Source of the DNA: Methanofollis formosanus
GTDB taxonomy: Archaea > Halobacteriota > Methanomicrobia > Methanomicrobiales > Methanofollaceae
DNA length: 64,000 nt
Reading direction: 5' to 3'
NCBI RefSeq assembly: GCF_019633745.1
Contig: NZ_CP037968.1
Span: 1,122,789-1,186,788 of the forward strand
The position numbers were made by a program, and so were the translations under genes. A model generated the notes under the pieces. That model was not told the DNA's origin and did not search any database. It was given only the letters and a program-made list of their open reading frames with translations. Of this stretch, positions 22,881 through 31,531 are shown piece by piece. How positions within the stretch are numbered: the stretch's first letter is position 1; every line of letters starts with the position of its first letter.

Positions 22881-25800
22881 ATGTACCGAAGTAAACAAGA
22901 TTTCTATACCCACGCGGCCGCCCTGGCCGTGGCCGTCACGCTTCTCTGTTGCGTGCTGGTCATGCCCGCGGCCGCAGAGGACACGGGCCTCGGGGCGGCG
23001 GTCGACGCTCCGGGTCTTGTATGGACGACCGACACCTCCACGAAGGCGTGGACGGTCGATACCGAACACGCTGTGAAAGGCGGGAGCTCCGTCAGGAGCG
23101 GGCCGGATTTAAGCTTTGGCGACTCGAAGATCGAGACCACGGTCATCGGCCCCGGCACGCTCTCCTTCTCCTGGGATGTCCACTCTCCTTCAAGCGACTA
23201 TTACAAGTTCTCCATTGACGGCACCGATCAGAAGCAGATCGGAGGCACCGAGTCTGTCTGGACAGAGGAGTCCTTCAGGATCGCTTCTGGCGAACACACG
23301 CTCACCTGGACCTATCACAAGGGGGGTTTCGGTGTCAAGAACGAGAATGGCGGATGGCTCGACGCGGTCACCTTCACCGCGGGCGACTACACCGACTTCT
23401 CCGCCAATGTCACTTCGGGTATGACGCCCCTGGCCGTGCAGTTCACCGACCTCTCCACCGGCGACGTGAGCGAATGGGAGTGGGACTTCGGCGACGGCTC
23501 AGCGCACGTCACCACCCAGGACGCGACCCACGTCTACGAGAAGGCCGGCACGTACGAGGTCACCCTCACCGTCCAGAGAGCAGGAGCCTCTGAGACCGAG
23601 ACGAAGAGCGGGTACATCACCGTGCTCAAGAGCCAGACCCTTGCCGAGGCCGTGGACGCACCCGACCTCACCCTGACCACCGGCGGCGACGCGGAATGGT
23701 CTGTCGATACCACCGAGAGTGTCGCCGGCGAGACCAGCATCAGGAGCGGTCTGCTCGCGAGTTCTCAGTCCACCCAGGTGGAGACCACCGTCACCGGGCC
23801 TGCGACCCTCTCCTTCGACTGGAAGGTCAAGCCCCAGAAAGTCATGTGGTCCACGTACGGCGAACTCGAGTTCGCGGTCGACGGCGCGACCTCCTCCGAC
23901 GACCTCTATAAGAAGATCCGGTCGGACGACGGCTGGCACCACGAGACCTTCGACCTCGGCGACGGGGAGCACACCGTCAAATGGACCTACTCCACCACAT
24001 CCTCGGACAAACCCGAGAACGGCGGATGGATCGACAACGTGACGGTTGAGTCCGCAACGCCCAAACCGCCTCTTCCCACCCTGGGCGAGGCCCTGGACGC
24101 CGCTGACCTCACCTGGACCACCGGCGGCGACGACGATTGGGTCGTCGAGGACGGCAACGGCTTCGGCGGCAGTTGCGCCAGGAGCGGCGAGGCCTTTTAC
24201 GGTTGTGACGGTTCCTGGATCGAGACCACCGTCACCGGGCCGGGCACCCTGAGTTTTGCCTGGAATGTCTCGTCAGGCTACGACGAGAGCGAAGACCTCA
24301 ACGACCCCTGGTCTTCCGACCTGCTCAGGTTCACCATCGACGGCGAGACTCAGAAGAACATCGCCGGCGAAGACTTCGCCTGGACGACCGAGTCCTTTAC
24401 GATCGGCGAGGGCGAACACACTCTCAGATGGCACTATCTCGAAGCCGGCGGGAACTATGCCGGCGAAGACCGCGGCTGGCTCGACCACGTCGCCTTCACC
24501 CCGAAGGCGCCCGCGCCAACCACCCTCAAAGCGGCCCTGGACGCCCCGAACCTTGAGTGGGCCACATCCGGAGCATCAGAGTGGACCATCGACACGGCGA
24601 ACGGCGTGAAGGGCGGCGGTTGTGCACGGAGCGGCCCTCTCACTTATTTCTACGACCAATCCGACCTCATGACCTCGGTCACCGGTCCGGGCACCCTCAC
24701 CTTCTGGTGGAATGTCTCCTGCAGTGAGTGGGACAGTTTCTACCTCGCGATCGACGGGGAAGACACCGTCGACATCGCCGGCACCGACCGCACCTGGGAG
24801 GAGCGGACCGTCGAGATCGCACCCGGCACTCATCAGCTCACCTGGTCCTTCATCAGGATGAACTATGATGAGCCCGAAGGCGAGGACTGTGGGTGGCTTG
24901 ACAACGTCTCCTACACCCAGGAGATCGTCACCGCCTTCACCGCCAACACCACCGCCGGCGACGCCCCCCTCGCCGTGCAGTTCACCGACCAGAGCACCGG
25001 CAACCCGACCGCCTGGCACTGGGACTTCGGCGACGGCACCACCTCCGACGAGCAGCACCCGGCCCACATCTTCGAGGCCGGCACCTACGACGTCTCCCTG
25101 ACCGTCACCAGAGACGGCGTGGAGGAGACCGGGGCGAAGACCGGGTACATCCACTCGATCGGCGAGGTCACCCTTGCCGAGGCCTTCGACGCCCCTGACC
25201 TCGCGTGGACCACCGGCGGCAACGCCACCTGGTCGGTCGTGAAGGGCCCCGAGTATGTCGGGTACAGTGCCGGCAAGAGCGCCGGGGCACTGGCCTGTAG
25301 CCAGAACTCCTGGGTCCGGACCACGGTCGCCGGCCCCTGCATCCTCTCCTTCGACTGGAAGGTGAACCCCGGCAAGTACTCCGGGATGCCTCTGGGCAAG
25401 ATGGAGTTCGCGGTCGACGACGCCGACCAGTACGACGATCTCTACAAGAAGATCCAGTGGGCCTCTGACTGGTCCCATGAGACCTACCACATCGGCCACG
25501 GCACCCACACCATCACCTGGACCTACTCCACCTCCATGACCGAGAAGGAAGAGAACGGCGGCTGGCTCGACAATGTCACCTACACCTACGGCGGCGGCGA
25601 ACCGGTCGTGGACTTCGTCACCAACGTGACCGAGAACCGCGGCATGGCACCCCTGGCCGTCGAGTTTGCCGACAACTCCACCGGTTTCCCGACCGCATGG
25701 AACTGGGACTTCGGCGACGGTTCGGCACCGGTCACCACCGAGAGCGCCGCCCATGTCTATACCAGGCCGGGCGAGTACCCGGTCACCCTGACGGTCACCA

Positions 25801-28250
25801 ACATCGTCGGGAAGGACGCCGACGGGAAGGTGGTCCTCGGCACCGACACCGTGACGAAGACGGTGACCGTCGTCGAGGCCATCCCGCTCGGCACCGCGGT
25901 CGACGCTCCTGAACTCACCTGGACGACCGGCGGCGACGCCGGCTGGTTCACCGACATCTACTGTGCCCTGACAGGCGGGAGTTCCGCGAGGAGCGGCGTC
26001 ATCTCATCCAGGGAGAACACCTCCTGGATCGAGGCGACGGTCACCGGCCCCGGCGTGCTCACCTTCAACTGGAACATCAACGCCACGGCCTTCACGTACT
26101 GCGGATTGCTGGAGTTCTTGGCCGACGGGACGAAGGTCTCAGAGATCAAGGGGACTCAGCAGGGCAAATACTGGCCTGGCGTGTACTATGAGGTCCCGCC
26201 CGGCGAGCACGCCCTCAGGTGGACCTACTCCAACGAATACCGGTACAAAGAGGGCGACTGCGGTCACCTCGACAACGTCACCTACACCTTCGGCGCCATC
26301 CTCCCGACGGCCGCCTTCGAGGCCAACGTGACGCGGGCGATGGCCCCGGCGACGGTGCAGTTCAACGACACCTCGGCCGGGTGCCCGACCGCATGGTCCT
26401 GGGACTTCGGCGACGGTGCGACCTCTGACGAGCAGCACCCGACCCACACCTACGAGAAGGTCGGCGAGTATCAGGTCACCCTGACGGTCACCAACGACGC
26501 CGGCACCAGCAGCACGACGCAGACCATCGCGGCCGTTCCTTTCGCCACTCTTCCAGAAGCCGTCGAGGCCCCTGACCTGGAGTGGTCCACCGGCGGCGCT
26601 GCTGACTGGTTCGTCGACGTCGACTGCGTCCACACCGGCACCACCTCGGCACGGAGCGGCGCCATCGAGGGCGGCAAGGAGTCCTGGCTCCAGGCAAACA
26701 TCACCGGTCCGGGCTACCTCACCTTTGCCTGGAACGTCTCCTCTGAACCCAGGCACGACTACCTGAGGCTCTTCATCGACGGCGAGGAGGAGAAGAACAT
26801 CTTCGGCTTCCCTGAGAACTGGACCGAGGAAGAGTACAGGCTCGGGTTCGGCACGCACGCCGTCAGGTGGGTGTACGAGAAGGACTACAACTCGGACATG
26901 ATGGAGGACTGCGGCTGGCTCGACAACGTCACCTTCACCACGATCGACGACACCGACTTTGTCGGCAACGTCACCTGGGGCGAGGTCCCGCTCACCGTGG
27001 ACTTCACCGGGTATTCGACCGGAAACCCGATCCACTGGGCCTGGGACTTCGGCGACAAGGAGTCGGCGGTCGGCAGGAACCAGACGCACACCTACACCAC
27101 GCCCGGCGTCTACAACGTCACCCTCATCGTGCAGAAGGACACCGCCCCTGAAGGGCAGATGGAGGTCAAGAACGGCTACATCACCGTCACCCCGACCTTC
27201 GAGGATGCGCTCGACGCCGCCGACCTCGTCTGGACGACCGGCGGGGACGCACCCTGGTTTGTCCAGTTGAACGAGACCTTCGTCGGCGGGAGCTGCGGGC
27301 AGAGCGGTGCGATCGACGAGCGCAACCAGCAGACCTGGATCGAGACCACGGTCACCGGCCCCAAGAACCTCACCTTCGACTGGCAGGTCTCCTCCTATGA
27401 GGGCTACTCGATGAAGTCCTCGGACGTCCTCGCGTTCTCCATCGACGGCGAGATGCAGAAAGAGATCGCCGGTACCGATGAGGGGTGGCAAACCGCTGAG
27501 TACACCCTGGCGAAGGGCGAACACACCCTGCGGTGGATGTACGAGAAGCGTTCATACAGCAGCACCGCCGGGGAAGACTGCGGGCGGCTCGACAATGTCG
27601 TTCTCACCGACATCGCCCCGGTGATCTCGTTTGCCCCGGCCACGGCGACGGTCGCCGCCGGGACCGAGCGCGAGGTCGCCATCGTCGCCGACCACTTCCC
27701 TGACGGCCTGAAGAACTATTCGATTACCGTCACCCTCGAGAACGACCGTGCCCGGATCACCGGCGTCGACGTCGCCTCCATGACCGGCGCATCCTCACCG
27801 TCCGGCCTGCCCGGCACCACCGTCACGTTCTCCGCGAGCGACGACGGCAACACCGTCGAGGCAGGTGCGGAGAACGTCCTCCTCGCCACCCTGAAGGTCA
27901 GGGGCCTCACCGACGGCACGGCCGGGATCACGGTCGGCGACGTCGTGGTCTACACAGACAGCGGCGAAGAAACCAGTGTGATCTGCACGCCGGGCACCAT
28001 CGACGTCGTCGGGCTCTCGCCCCTCCCCGGATGTGTCAACATACCCGGCGACGATGACGGCGACGGCCTCTTCGAGGACGTGAACGGCGACGGCACCCTG
28101 GACACCGACGATGTCGGGGCCTACTTCGAACACTTCGAGAGCATCTTCTCGCAAAAGAACCCGCGGGTCTTCGACTACAACGGCAACGGCCGGATCGACT
28201 TCGACGATGTCGTGACGGTCCACCGCTCCATGGAGACCGACCGAGCATGA
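22881..28250 (+). CDS. Giant secreted PKD-repeat protein with cohesin-like and dockerin-like C-terminus
   Basis: 1789 residues. A signal peptide (to about residue 33) is followed by eight copies of a roughly 130-residue beta-sandwich module, each opening like DAPDLxWTTGGDAxW and closing GGWLDNVTY. Five PKD domains (WDFGDG core) are interspersed. Near the C-terminus a cohesin-like domain (ISFAPATATVAAGTEREVAI ... VLLATLKVRG) is followed by a dockerin-like pair of Ca-binding loops (DVNGDGTLDTDDV and DYNGNGRIDFDDV). It is probably a cell-surface or secreted scaffold or adhesin. There is no membrane anchor, so attachment may be through cohesin-dockerin contact. The next gene starts 17 bases later and carries another cohesin-like domain. 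Confidence 0.85.
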   Translation: MYRSKQDFYTHAAALAVAVTLLCCVLVMPAAAEDTGLGAAVDAPGLVWTTDTSTKAWTVDTEHAVKGGSSVRSGPDLSFGDSKIETTVIGPGTLSFSWDVHSPSSDYYKFSIDGTDQKQIGGTESVWTEESFRIASGEHTLTWTYHKGGFGVKNENGGWLDAVTFTAGDYTDFSANVTSGMTPLAVQFTDLSTGDVSEWEWDFGDGSAHVTTQDATHVYEKAGTYEVTLTVQRAGASETETKSGYITVLKSQTLAEAVDAPDLTLTTGGDAEWSVDTTESVAGETSIRSGLLASSQSTQVETTVTGPATLSFDWKVKPQKVMWSTYGELEFAVDGATSSDDLYKKIRSDDGWHHETFDLGDGEHTVKWTYSTTSSDKPENGGWIDNVTVESATPKPPLPTLGEALDAADLTWTTGGDDDWVVEDGNGFGGSCARSGEAFYGCDGSWIETTVTGPGTLSFAWNVSSGYDESEDLNDPWSSDLLRFTIDGETQKNIAGEDFAWTTESFTIGEGEHTLRWHYLEAGGNYAGEDRGWLDHVAFTPKAPAPTTLKAALDAPNLEWATSGASEWTIDTANGVKGGGCARSGPLTYFYDQSDLMTSVTGPGTLTFWWNVSCSEWDSFYLAIDGEDTVDIAGTDRTWEERTVEIAPGTHQLTWSFIRMNYDEPEGEDCGWLDNVSYTQEIVTAFTANTTAGDAPLAVQFTDQSTGNPTAWHWDFGDGTTSDEQHPAHIFEAGTYDVSLTVTRDGVEETGAKTGYIHSIGEVTLAEAFDAPDLAWTTGGNATWSVVKGPEYVGYSAGKSAGALACSQNSWVRTTVAGPCILSFDWKVNPGKYSGMPLGKMEFAVDDADQYDDLYKKIQWASDWSHETYHIGHGTHTITWTYSTSMTEKEENGGWLDNVTYTYGGGEPVVDFVTNVTENRGMAPLAVEFADNSTGFPTAWNWDFGDGSAPVTTESAAHVYTRPGEYPVTLTVTNIVGKDADGKVVLGTDTVTKTVTVVEAIPLGTAVDAPELTWTTGGDAGWFTDIYCALTGGSSARSGVISSRENTSWIEATVTGPGVLTFNWNINATAFTYCGLLEFLADGTKVSEIKGTQQGKYWPGVYYEVPPGEHALRWTYSNEYRYKEGDCGHLDNVTYTFGAILPTAAFEANVTRAMAPATVQFNDTSAGCPTAWSWDFGDGATSDEQHPTHTYEKVGEYQVTLTVTNDAGTSSTTQTIAAVPFATLPEAVEAPDLEWSTGGAADWFVDVDCVHTGTTSARSGAIEGGKESWLQANITGPGYLTFAWNVSSEPRHDYLRLFIDGEEEKNIFGFPENWTEEEYRLGFGTHAVRWVYEKDYNSDMMEDCGWLDNVTFTTIDDTDFVGNVTWGEVPLTVDFTGYSTGNPIHWAWDFGDKESAVGRNQTHTYTTPGVYNVTLIVQKDTAPEGQMEVKNGYITVTPTFEDALDAADLVWTTGGDAPWFVQLNETFVGGSCGQSGAIDERNQQTWIETTVTGPKNLTFDWQVSSYEGYSMKSSDVLAFSIDGEMQKEIAGTDEGWQTAEYTLAKGEHTLRWMYEKRSYSSTAGEDCGRLDNVVLTDIAPVISFAPATATVAAGTEREVAIVADHFPDGLKNYSITVTLENDRARITGVDVASMTGASSPSGLPGTTVTFSASDDGNTVEAGAENVLLATLKVRGLTDGTAGITVGDVVVYTDSGEETSVICTPGTIDVVGLSPLPGCVNIPGDDDGDGLFEDVNGDGTLDTDDVGAYFEHFESIFSQKNPRVFDYNGNGRIDFDDVVTVHRSMETDRA

Positions 28251-28267
28251 GACAGGTGGCTTGAGTT

Positions 28268-31200
28268 ATGAATACCAGCATACTGAAAGGTCTGGCAGGC
28301 GCACTCCTCTGCGCCTGCCTGCTCCTCTGGGCCGCGGCCCCGGCAGCCTCCGCACTGGAGGTGACCGAGGCGCCGCTCAACCCGGAGTTTGTGAAATATC
28401 TTGAGGAGCAAGAGGCACCGGCCGACCGCATGATGACGGCCGCGGCCGCTTCAATCGAAGAAGGCGAAAGCACAGACGAGATCTGCGGCGAGATCCCCTC
28501 GCCGGTGACCGTCGCCTGGCCCGAGGGCAGCGAGGTGCAGACCACCTCGGCCTTCAAGCCCGCCCCCTCTGAGAGCCGTTATGACCTTCGCGACGAGGGC
28601 CGGGTCGGGTCGGTGAAGGACCAGGGACACTGCGGGAGCTGCTGGTCGTTTGCGGCCATCGGTTCCCTGGAGTCCACCCTCCTCCCTGGAGAGGTCTGGG
28701 ACTTCTCCGAGAACAACCTGAAAAACACCCACGGCCTGGACTATACCCACGTCGAGGGTGGGAACGCCTATATGGCCACCGCCTACTTCTCCCGCTGGTC
28801 GGGCCCGGTGAACGAGTCCGACGATCCCTACAGCGAGGTCTCGGGCGTCTCCCCCACCGGCCTCACCGTCCGGAAGCATGTCCAGGACGTGGACTTCCTC
28901 CCGGTGCGGAAAGACCGTTCCAATGTCACCCTGATCAAGCAGGCGGTCAAGGAGTACGGCGGGGTCTACTCCTCGATGTACTGGTCGAACGGTTTCTACG
29001 ACGAGGGGCATGCGAGTTACTATGACCCCTGGCTCGTCGGCGGCGGCCACGCCGTCCTGATCGTGGGCTGGGACGACACCTACAGCAAAGAGAACTTCAC
29101 CTTCACCCCGCCGGGCGACGGTGCGTTCATCGTGAGGAACTCCTGGAACACCGACTGGGGCGACGACGGCTACTTCTACCAGTCGTACTATGACGCCGAC
29201 CGCGGCTGCAAGGCGGTCTTCACCGCAGAAGATACCGACAACTACCGCGACGTCTACTTCCACGACCCGCTGGGCTGGACCTCGGCGGTCGGGCTGGGGA
29301 GCGAGACGGCGTACGCCGCCAACGTCTTCACCGCCACCTCGGGCAACAGCCTGGGTGCGGTCGGGTTCTTCACCCCGGCCCCGAACGCCGCCTACGAGGT
29401 CTCGGTCTACGTCGACCCGACCGACGGCCCCCTCTCGGCGGACGGGCCGGTGACGACCATCTCCGGCACGCAGGTCCTGCCCGGCTACCACACCCACCCA
29501 CTCGCAACGCCGGTGCCCCTGAAACCGGGTCAGAAGTTCTCGGTGGTCGTCAAGCTCACGACGCCCGGCTACTACCAGCCGCTGGCGGTTGAGAAACCGA
29601 TCGCCGGGTTCTCGACCGGCGCAAAGGCGTCGGCCGGCGAGAGTTATGTCAGCGCCGACGGCGTCGAGTGGGACGACCTCACGACCAGAATGCCCAACAC
29701 CAACGTCTGTCTGAAGGCCTACTCCGTCTACGAGGAGCCGAAACTCTCGTTCAGTACCGCCCATTCATCTGTGAATGCAGGTGACGAGACCGAAGTCCCC
29801 ATCACCATGAGCCGCGCCCCCTGGGGTCTTGCCGGTTACGAGATCGACGTCTCGGTCGCCGACCCAGAGGTCGCCACGATCACCGGCGCCTCCTACCCGG
29901 CCTGGGCGACGCTCAACCTCTCGCGCGAGACCGACGACGGTCTCATGATGCGGGCGGTCGACCTCGACGACGCCGTCCATGCAGGCGACGAGAACGTCGC
30001 CCTCGGCACGGTCAGGGTGAAAGGCCTCATCGGCGGAGCATCGGACCTGGAGATCGCCGTGCGGCAGATCGACGCCGACGGCGGCGACCTGGTCACCACC
30101 ACGGCGAACACGAGCAGCGTTACGGTCGCCCCCGCCGGCGACAGAGAGCAGGCCGAGAAGGCGAAGCTTGACGTGCCCGGATGCACCTTCGCCGGCAGGA
30201 ACGTCTCGGTGAAGAACTCCGGAGATGTCCAGGTATCCGGGGACAGGAAGAGCATCAAAGTCTCCGGGAACTCCTTCGACCTGACGATCAGGACCACCGG
30301 AGAAGTGACCGAGGAGGACGGCATCTTCAACGGCACGGTCGAGCGCGTCGTCCTCCAGACCAGAGCGCTCGCGGTCAGGTCAGAAGGGGCCGGCGAGGTC
30401 CGCGGCTCGGTGATGGCAGATCTTACCGGCGTGCCCCAGGGTGCGGCCGTCACCACGGCCCTGAGGAACGAGGCCGGGGCCGGGACAATGGACATCTTCG
30501 AGCGTGCGGCCGGAGAAGAGGGACTGACGATCGACGCCTTTGCGGCGTCCCTTGAGGTCCGGACCGCCAACCTCAACGACGGCGAGGAGATCACCGGCGC
30601 CACGGTGCTGATGAGCGCCCCGACCGCGTGGGTGGAGGCGCACGGCGGCGCAGAGAACGTCACGGTCATCCGCTGCAACGACGGAAAGGCAACACTTCTC
30701 CAGACTCGTGTCCAGGTGACCGAAGGCGGTATGACCACCTTTGCCGCCACGTCGCCTGACGGATTCTGTGAGTTCGGGCTGGTCGCCGTCTCGGCGGCAC
30801 CGGTCGAACCGACACCGGTACCGACCACCGAACCGACGCCAGTGCCGACGACTACCGAGCCAACACCGGCACCTACAACCACCGAACCCGCCCATGTCTC
30901 CTCACAGAGCAGCGGCGGCAGCAGTCAGTCGGACACTGCGGTCGGCGCGGCAGATTCCCTCCGTGCGGGAGAAAACGTCACCCTGACGATGCGCACCACG
31001 CCGGTCACGGCGGTCACGCTCAGGACGAAAGAAGACATCGACGGCCTCATGCTCTCGGTGAAGAAGGCCACGCTCCCGTCGGCGGCCGACGCCCCTGAAG
31101 ATGCGGTCTACGCCTACGTGGAGGCAACCCTGTATCGCACGACCGAAGACCGCCTCTCCGGCGAGACCATCGCCTTCGCCGTGCCCACGGCATGGATGAA

Positions 31201-31531
31201 AGCGCACTCCTGCACGGCCGACGACATCGGGCTCTTCAGGTACGTCGACGGTGCATGGAAGCCTCTCGAGACGGTATTCACCGGTGAGAACGGCGGCATT
31301 GCATACTTTGCTGCGGAAAGCGACGGTTTCTCCACCTTCGCCATCGCCGCAACCGCGGGGACGCCCGAGACACCGGCACCGACCGTGACCTCGGCAAGCG
31401 CCGAATCAGGTGCGGTGACCCCGGCAGAGACCGATACGGTCCCGGCGACGACGACGCAGAAGTCGCCTCTGCCCCTCTGGGCCGCGGCCCTGGCGATCGG
31501 CAGTGCCGCTCTCCTGGCACGGAGACACTAA
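28268..31531 (+). CDS. Secreted papain-like (C1A) cysteine protease with cohesin-like and PGF-pre-PGF domains
   Basis: 1087 residues. The signal peptide ends near AAPAASA (about 29). The peptidase C1A domain shows the catalytic Cys125 in QGHCGSCWSF, His261 in GGGHAVLIVGW and Asn291 in RNSWNTDWG. A lectin-like region follows (about 310-490), then a cohesin-like domain (LSFSTAHSSVNAGDETEVPI, about 495-625), a Thr/Pro linker and a PGF-pre-PGF-type domain (about 890-1030). The C-terminus is a hydrophobic helix with a basic tail (KSPLPLWAAALAIGSAALLA then RRH), typical of an archaeosortase-processed or membrane-anchored protein. It sits 17 bases after the PKD protein gene and is likely co-transcribed. 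Confidence 0.87.
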   Translation: MNTSILKGLAGALLCACLLLWAAAPAASALEVTEAPLNPEFVKYLEEQEAPADRMMTAAAASIEEGESTDEICGEIPSPVTVAWPEGSEVQTTSAFKPAPSESRYDLRDEGRVGSVKDQGHCGSCWSFAAIGSLESTLLPGEVWDFSENNLKNTHGLDYTHVEGGNAYMATAYFSRWSGPVNESDDPYSEVSGVSPTGLTVRKHVQDVDFLPVRKDRSNVTLIKQAVKEYGGVYSSMYWSNGFYDEGHASYYDPWLVGGGHAVLIVGWDDTYSKENFTFTPPGDGAFIVRNSWNTDWGDDGYFYQSYYDADRGCKAVFTAEDTDNYRDVYFHDPLGWTSAVGLGSETAYAANVFTATSGNSLGAVGFFTPAPNAAYEVSVYVDPTDGPLSADGPVTTISGTQVLPGYHTHPLATPVPLKPGQKFSVVVKLTTPGYYQPLAVEKPIAGFSTGAKASAGESYVSADGVEWDDLTTRMPNTNVCLKAYSVYEEPKLSFSTAHSSVNAGDETEVPITMSRAPWGLAGYEIDVSVADPEVATITGASYPAWATLNLSRETDDGLMMRAVDLDDAVHAGDENVALGTVRVKGLIGGASDLEIAVRQIDADGGDLVTTTANTSSVTVAPAGDREQAEKAKLDVPGCTFAGRNVSVKNSGDVQVSGDRKSIKVSGNSFDLTIRTTGEVTEEDGIFNGTVERVVLQTRALAVRSEGAGEVRGSVMADLTGVPQGAAVTTALRNEAGAGTMDIFERAAGEEGLTIDAFAASLEVRTANLNDGEEITGATVLMSAPTAWVEAHGGAENVTVIRCNDGKATLLQTRVQVTEGGMTTFAATSPDGFCEFGLVAVSAAPVEPTPVPTTEPTPVPTTTEPTPAPTTTEPAHVSSQSSGGSSQSDTAVGAADSLRAGENVTLTMRTTPVTAVTLRTKEDIDGLMLSVKKATLPSAADAPEDAVYAYVEATLYRTTEDRLSGETIAFAVPTAWMKAHSCTADDIGLFRYVDGAWKPLETVFTGENGGIAYFAAESDGFSTFAIAATAGTPETPAPTVTSASAESGAVTPAETDTVPATTTQKSPLPLWAAALAIGSAALLARRH

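Follow-up and report, generated by a model that had tools for sequence, protein, structure and literature searches.

Two consecutive genes on the forward strand of the window, the whole 64,000 nt stretch of Methanofollis formosanus DNA analysed here, raise the question of whether a secreted protein lacking an anchor of its own could be held on an archaeal cell by docking onto the product of its neighbour. The initial annotation had placed two open reading frames 17 bases apart, and suggested that a dockerin at the end of the first product, a PKD protein, could dock on a cohesin-like domain of the second, an anchored protease. Both frames are found where they had been placed, with the stop of gene 1 at 28250, the ATG of gene 2 at 28268 and 17 bases between them.

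Architecture and conservation of the gene pair

22881..28250, + strand: gene 1, encoding 1789 aa (open reading frame; PKD_4 match, E 5.6e-77; orthologues in 9 genomes)
22881..22976, + strand: predicted signal peptide of gene 1, residues 1-32, with an AxA end, from reading of the sequence
28268..31531, + strand: gene 2, encoding a 1087 aa surface papain-family protease with a cohesin-like domain (coh2) and a C-terminal anchor
28268..28354, + strand: predicted signal peptide of gene 2, residues 1-29, from the same reading
28577..29182, + strand: Peptidase_C1 domain of gene 2, residues 104-305 (PF00112, E 1.7e-27)
29252..29725, + strand: Lectin_like domain of gene 2, residues 329-486 (PF18560, E 5.2e-47)
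30965..31348, + strand: PGF-pre-PGF domain of gene 2, residues 900-1027 (TIGR04213, E 4.2e-24)
31457..31528, + strand: C-terminal anchor of gene 2, QKSPLPLWAAALAIGSAALLARRH (motif, hydrophobic stretch and basic end)

The product of gene 1 is predicted to be secreted, and is composed of the signal peptide, jelly-roll-like repeats together with PKD domains, a cohesin-like domain (coh1) and a C-terminal dockerin-like domain, in that order. The jelly-roll-like repeats, of which there are eight, have ends marked by (C/G/R)GxLDxV, are of the form LxWTTG ... GWLDNV and lie within positions 23000-27600 of the window; none of them had a match in Pfam or NCBIfam, only the interspersed PKD domains (five, in Pfam) being matched. 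The arm built from these units is probably substrate-binding or adhesive, an adhesive role being suggested by the repeats. The chain stops just past the dockerin, and a C-terminal anchor is absent.

In gene 2, the Peptidase_C1 domain contains the Cys125, His261 and Asn291 motifs of papain family C1, and is accordingly a predicted protease. The C-terminal anchor is retained in the orthologues of this gene. Elsewhere in the same genome (locus L074, contig positions 1340500-1358000) is a cluster of three papain-family paralogues, whose protease parts share 50-52% identity; no cohesin domain was detected in these paralogues, hence the protease in the window is unusual within its own family.

Adjacent copies of the two genes are present in eight of the 12 Methanofollis genomes, and also in a genome from a different family (G017). 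Orthologues of gene 2 share 75-87% identity in the seven other Methanofollis and 53% in G017, and a dockerin lies just upstream of the orthologue in every case. Gene 1 is present in exactly those genomes that have gene 2, whilst the other four Methanofollis lack both, having paralogues only. As the pair has a different upstream neighbour in G017, genes 1 and 2 behave as a unit, and their layout suggests that they share one transcript. The stop of gene 1 and the start of gene 2 overlap as ATGA in several of the orthologues; at 28247-28268 of the window, the frame in which most Methanofollis orthologues start gene 2 (MRQVAG..., GGA) is closed by a TGA five codons on, and gene 2 begins further downstream.

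Cohesin folds and the dockerin-like domain

27615..28010, + strand: coh1, residues 1579-1710 of gene 1 (phmmer; AlphaFold2; Foldseek/VIA, Z up to 15.4)
29738..30136, + strand: coh2, residues 491-623 of gene 2, the proposed receptor of the dockerin (AlphaFold2; Z up to 15.5)
28011..28247, + strand: dockerin-like domain, residues 1711-1789 of gene 1 (Dockerin_1 match; in the AlphaFold2 model a helix after each loop and none preceding loop 1)
28050..28079, + strand: extra acidic stretch ahead of loop 1, DDDGDGLFED, conserved in the family
28077..28112, + strand: predicted calcium-binding loop 1 of the dockerin, DVNGDGTLDTDD, residues 1733-1744 (12-residue pattern)
28173..28208, + strand: predicted calcium-binding loop 2 of the dockerin, DYNGNGRIDFDD, residues 1765-1776 (12-residue pattern)

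The cohesin-like domains coh1 and coh2 are homologous to one another, both in phmmer searches (about 1e-8) and in a profile-profile comparison (probability 100%, E 1.2e-39). AlphaFold2 models of coh1 with the dockerin, and of coh2, were built from alignments of 57 and 50 relatives respectively; both have a pLDDT of 93.7 and a pTM of 0.87, and the cohesin part is nine-stranded and devoid of a helix. When these were compared with solved structures using Foldseek and VIA, the leading rows were all cohesins, with Z scores reaching 15.4 for coh1 and 15.5 for coh2; the Archaeoglobus fulgidus cohesin 2xdh scored 15.4 against the former and 14.9 against the latter. The Pfam Cohesin family PF00963 matched neither of the two proteins up to E 1, and matched one other cohesin of the same genome. 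Searching the PDB by sequence, cohesin profiles gave weak cohesin matches, the best having E 0.04, and a profile of stand-alone cohesins found no cohesin. Since these PDB sequence searches were weak or empty, the assignment rests on the comparison of folds, through which the cohesin fold of the modelled coh1 and coh2 is supported.

The 12-residue calcium-loop pattern matches the gene 1 protein exactly twice, compared with a mean of 0.009 matches in 2000 shuffles of the protein, none of which (0/2000) contained two loops. Residues 1732-1783 matched Dockerin_1 with E 5.5e-4 and 20.5 bits in hmmscan, just below the cut-off of 22.9, and with 26.9 bits, exceeding this cut-off, in the scan of the genome. 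The layout is that of a type I dockerin: two tandem 12-residue loops, a helix after each, and no EF-hand entering helix, the model being without a helix ahead of loop 1 and having one of only four residues ahead of loop 2. A search of the PDB with the dockerin profile returned dockerins and calmodulin-type EF-hands intermixed, the sequence being equally near to both. Columns D151, D155 and D160 of the acidic stretch are invariant in the family alignment, and D153 and E159 almost so; this stretch may be a calcium site as well.

The domain composition given in the initial annotation is thus upheld for both proteins: that of gene 1 ends in a cohesin-like domain and a two-loop dockerin-like domain (AlphaFold2 and Foldseek; loop pattern), and the protease has a cohesin-like domain of its own and a C-terminal anchor (coh2 fold; hydrophobic segment). 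The asymmetry drawn there between an unanchored first protein and an anchored second one is likewise supported. A Foldseek comparison of both domains with cohesins, as proposed in the annotation, filled the top rows entirely with cohesins, which is the opposite of its first ground for refutation, a prediction lacking this fold. Its description of gene 1 as a scaffold was inaccurate and has been rejected, because only one cohesin is present in this protein, which is the member of the pair that bears the dockerin; its proposed place is that of a docked subunit rather than a scaffold.

The pTM of the coh1-dockerin model suggests that these domains form one compact dyad, in which coh1 may act as a support for the dockerin in the manner of the X modules of some bacterial dockerins. 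So high a value would also fit an intramolecular role, and to this extent argues against a dock-and-anchor arrangement. The dockerin could then be an EF-hand-type calcium-binding terminus, packed against coh1 and stabilising this end of the chain, with no intermolecular docking, as would be consistent both with the single high-confidence unit in the model and with the EF-hand-like sequence. We nevertheless consider such a cap unlikely, as the dockerin module is found in dozens of proteins that have no cohesin ahead of it, and as it would leave unexplained the cohesin gene regularly found downstream (see below).

Were the dockerin instead to dock, both coh1 and coh2 are candidate receptors. Of six positions at which stand-alone cohesins show clearly higher conservation than cohesins linked to a dockerin, coh2 retains all and coh1 has lost three (P60, L82 and D118 are kept in stand-alone cohesins, present in coh2 and lost in coh1), a post hoc and soft contrast that hints at coh2 as the receptor. 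The same losses count against homotypic assembly, through which the dockerin would bind coh1 of another gene 1 molecule to form head-to-tail chains, whose last link would be seated in coh2 on the cell. All five of the family dockerins in the genome sit directly behind a cohesin, as such chains would predict, and the single A. fulgidus dockerin reportedly binds both of the A. fulgidus cohesins; many dockerins of the family, however, have no cohesin on their own chain, and we regard head-to-tail assembly as just as unlikely as the cap.

Gene order across the Halobacteriota

The possible docking of the first product on the second can also be considered in terms of how such genes are arranged elsewhere. 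Iterated cohesin and dockerin profiles were run on 78 cohesin-dockerin loci and on the neighbouring regions of the window genome. A gene ending in cohesin-dockerin had a cohesin gene directly downstream in 35 of 54 instances and upstream in two of 54, and dockerin genes with no cohesin on the chain had a cohesin gene behind them in 11 of 57, the counts of 35/54 and 11/57 including many orthologues and not being independent. Among 294 genomes sampled evenly across the phylum, a cohesin gene, usually encoding a hydrophobic C terminus, was found directly behind the cohesin-dockerin gene in 23 of the 30 best loci (20 within the flank, plus three pairs of the window type with the cohesin lying further down). 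The archaeal two-gene organisation of the A. fulgidus type, a dockerin and a lone cohesin, is therefore shared by the window pair and these 23 loci, and on a cruder count the arrangement extends to at least nine families. Provisionally, no earlier report of this gene-order rule was found in the open-access literature.

The passengers carrying the dockerin differ between lineages, being PhoX phosphatases in haloarchaea, a subtilase in an Archaeoglobales genome, and NHL propellers and surface repeats in Methanomicrobiales. Typical small partner proteins have 230-340 residues, one cohesin and a hydrophobic C terminus. Those tested had no match in Pfam or NCBIfam, hence the pattern is easily overlooked.

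A number of individual loci illustrate this variety. Behind haloarchaeal PhoX-cohesin-dockerin genes (L086-L126, e.g. L086:5889-9343) lies a small cohesin gene, the product of which has a strongly hydrophobic C terminus; two of these small proteins were tested, and both are unannotated in Pfam and NCBIfam. In Methanomicrobiales operons (L132, L116 and L146), one cohesin gene comes after two or three dockerin genes, of which one has NHL repeats; in L132 and L116 this cohesin gene carries 13 PKD repeats. A cohesin-dockerin protein of the same family is also encoded by a contig that bears the label of a bacterium, Candidatus Bipolaricaulota (L100).

The window genome itself encodes 13 cohesins and five dockerins of the window-type family, so cross-docking is possible. 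It contains two further dockerin-then-cohesin clusters, each with a small anchored cohesin. Gene 1 might consequently dock mainly on the small membrane-segment cohesins of other clusters, whilst the protease receives other dockerin proteins, and both the number of these domains and the two small anchored cohesins at other loci would allow this. However, every dockerin cluster of the genome comes with a cohesin of its own downstream, and gain or loss has affected genes 1 and 2 jointly; such promiscuity appears slightly less probable again than the cap or the chains.

At one locus of this genome (L183:621-7779), two tandem surface-protein genes, one of them with DUF3821, both end in cohesin-dockerin, with one small cohesin gene, having a hydrophobic C terminus, behind them. 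A second type of dockerin, GDANGDGTVDQADTLRVLKEVVGL..., is found at L070, L072 and L073, in one instance behind a subtilase-like protein with a cohesin recognised by Pfam.

Proposed docking at the cell surface and known systems

The closest precedent is in A. fulgidus, where binding is strong and specific between the ORF2375 dockerin (residues 432-506) and the ORF2376 cohesin (residues 29-162; structure 2xdh) (PMC9705933). Like the window pair, these are consecutive open reading frames, one with a C-terminal dockerin and the other with a cohesin, and the system is non-cellulosic with a cohesin fold. The pairs differ in that the ORF2376 cohesin is N-terminal, that in the window the cohesin belongs to a papain-family protease and the dockerin to a protein of PKD domains and jelly-roll-like repeats, and that the sequence similarity of coh1 and coh2 to 2xdh is below detection. 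The dockerin and cohesin proteins of ANME archaea are also extracellular and have no link to cellulose; in contrast to the one dockerin, and one cohesin per partner, of the window, they comprise many dockerins and multi-cohesin scaffoldin-like proteins, and archaeal dockerin-cohesin bonds are stated to be verified (PMC9012536).

The nine-stranded cohesins without the type II helix, and the two-loop dockerin, are features shared with the type I modules of the clostridial cellulosome, in which an anchored cohesin receives a docked subunit, as would be the case here. Positions 10 and 11 of the dockerin loops are T-D and F-D in the window, whereas a Ser-Thr pair occupies them in C. thermocellum. 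Unlike the cellulosome, the unit has neither a multi-cohesin scaffoldin nor a glycoside hydrolase; that term was rejected, given one cohesin per protein, no scaffoldin, and no glycoside hydrolase domain in either product in Pfam. In the X module-dockerin dyads of type II systems, too, an Ig-like or jelly-roll domain lies directly ahead of the dockerin, although the preceding domain in the window is itself a cohesin, with a putative supporting role.

Given the gene order seen across the phylum and the A. fulgidus precedent, docking of the gene 1 product on its neighbour is the best explanation of the locus, and the combination of this order with an unanchored dockerin and an anchored cohesin points to the first product attaching to the second. 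It is likely that the genes form a two-gene dock-and-anchor unit, with coh2 the most probable site of docking; the binding, its need for calcium and a preference for coh2 among the cohesins are inferred. The protease encoded by gene 2 would sit on the outside of the membrane and expose coh2, and the product of gene 1 would be secreted without an anchor, its calcium-loaded C-terminal dockerin plugging into a surface cohesin, most likely coh2 of the protease from the same transcript. Docking would then hold the long multi-repeat arm of gene 1 beside the protease.

A non-cellulosic archaeal cohesin-dockerin pair is already known in kind; what is new is a protease as the putative receptor, together with how widely the unannotated module occurs. 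Evenly poised at present is the wider proposal that the Halobacteriota have a phylum-wide, largely unannotated system, in which a distinct subfamily of lone cohesins fixes diverse secreted passengers through calcium-dependent docking, and that in Methanofollis the receptor became a protease, giving a docked adhesin-protease machine. The order of plug and then anchored socket probably serves the fixing of secreted proteins to the surface. To our knowledge, the peptidoglycan that serves bacteria as an attachment site for many surface proteins is missing from archaea, and little is known to us of how most secreted archaeal proteins are retained on the cell. If the proposal is true, a conserved plug-and-socket gene pair with swappable passengers would be a general and directly testable answer to this question of retention, and the biology of cohesins and dockerins would extend beyond the degradation of plant fibre to a common archaeal trait.
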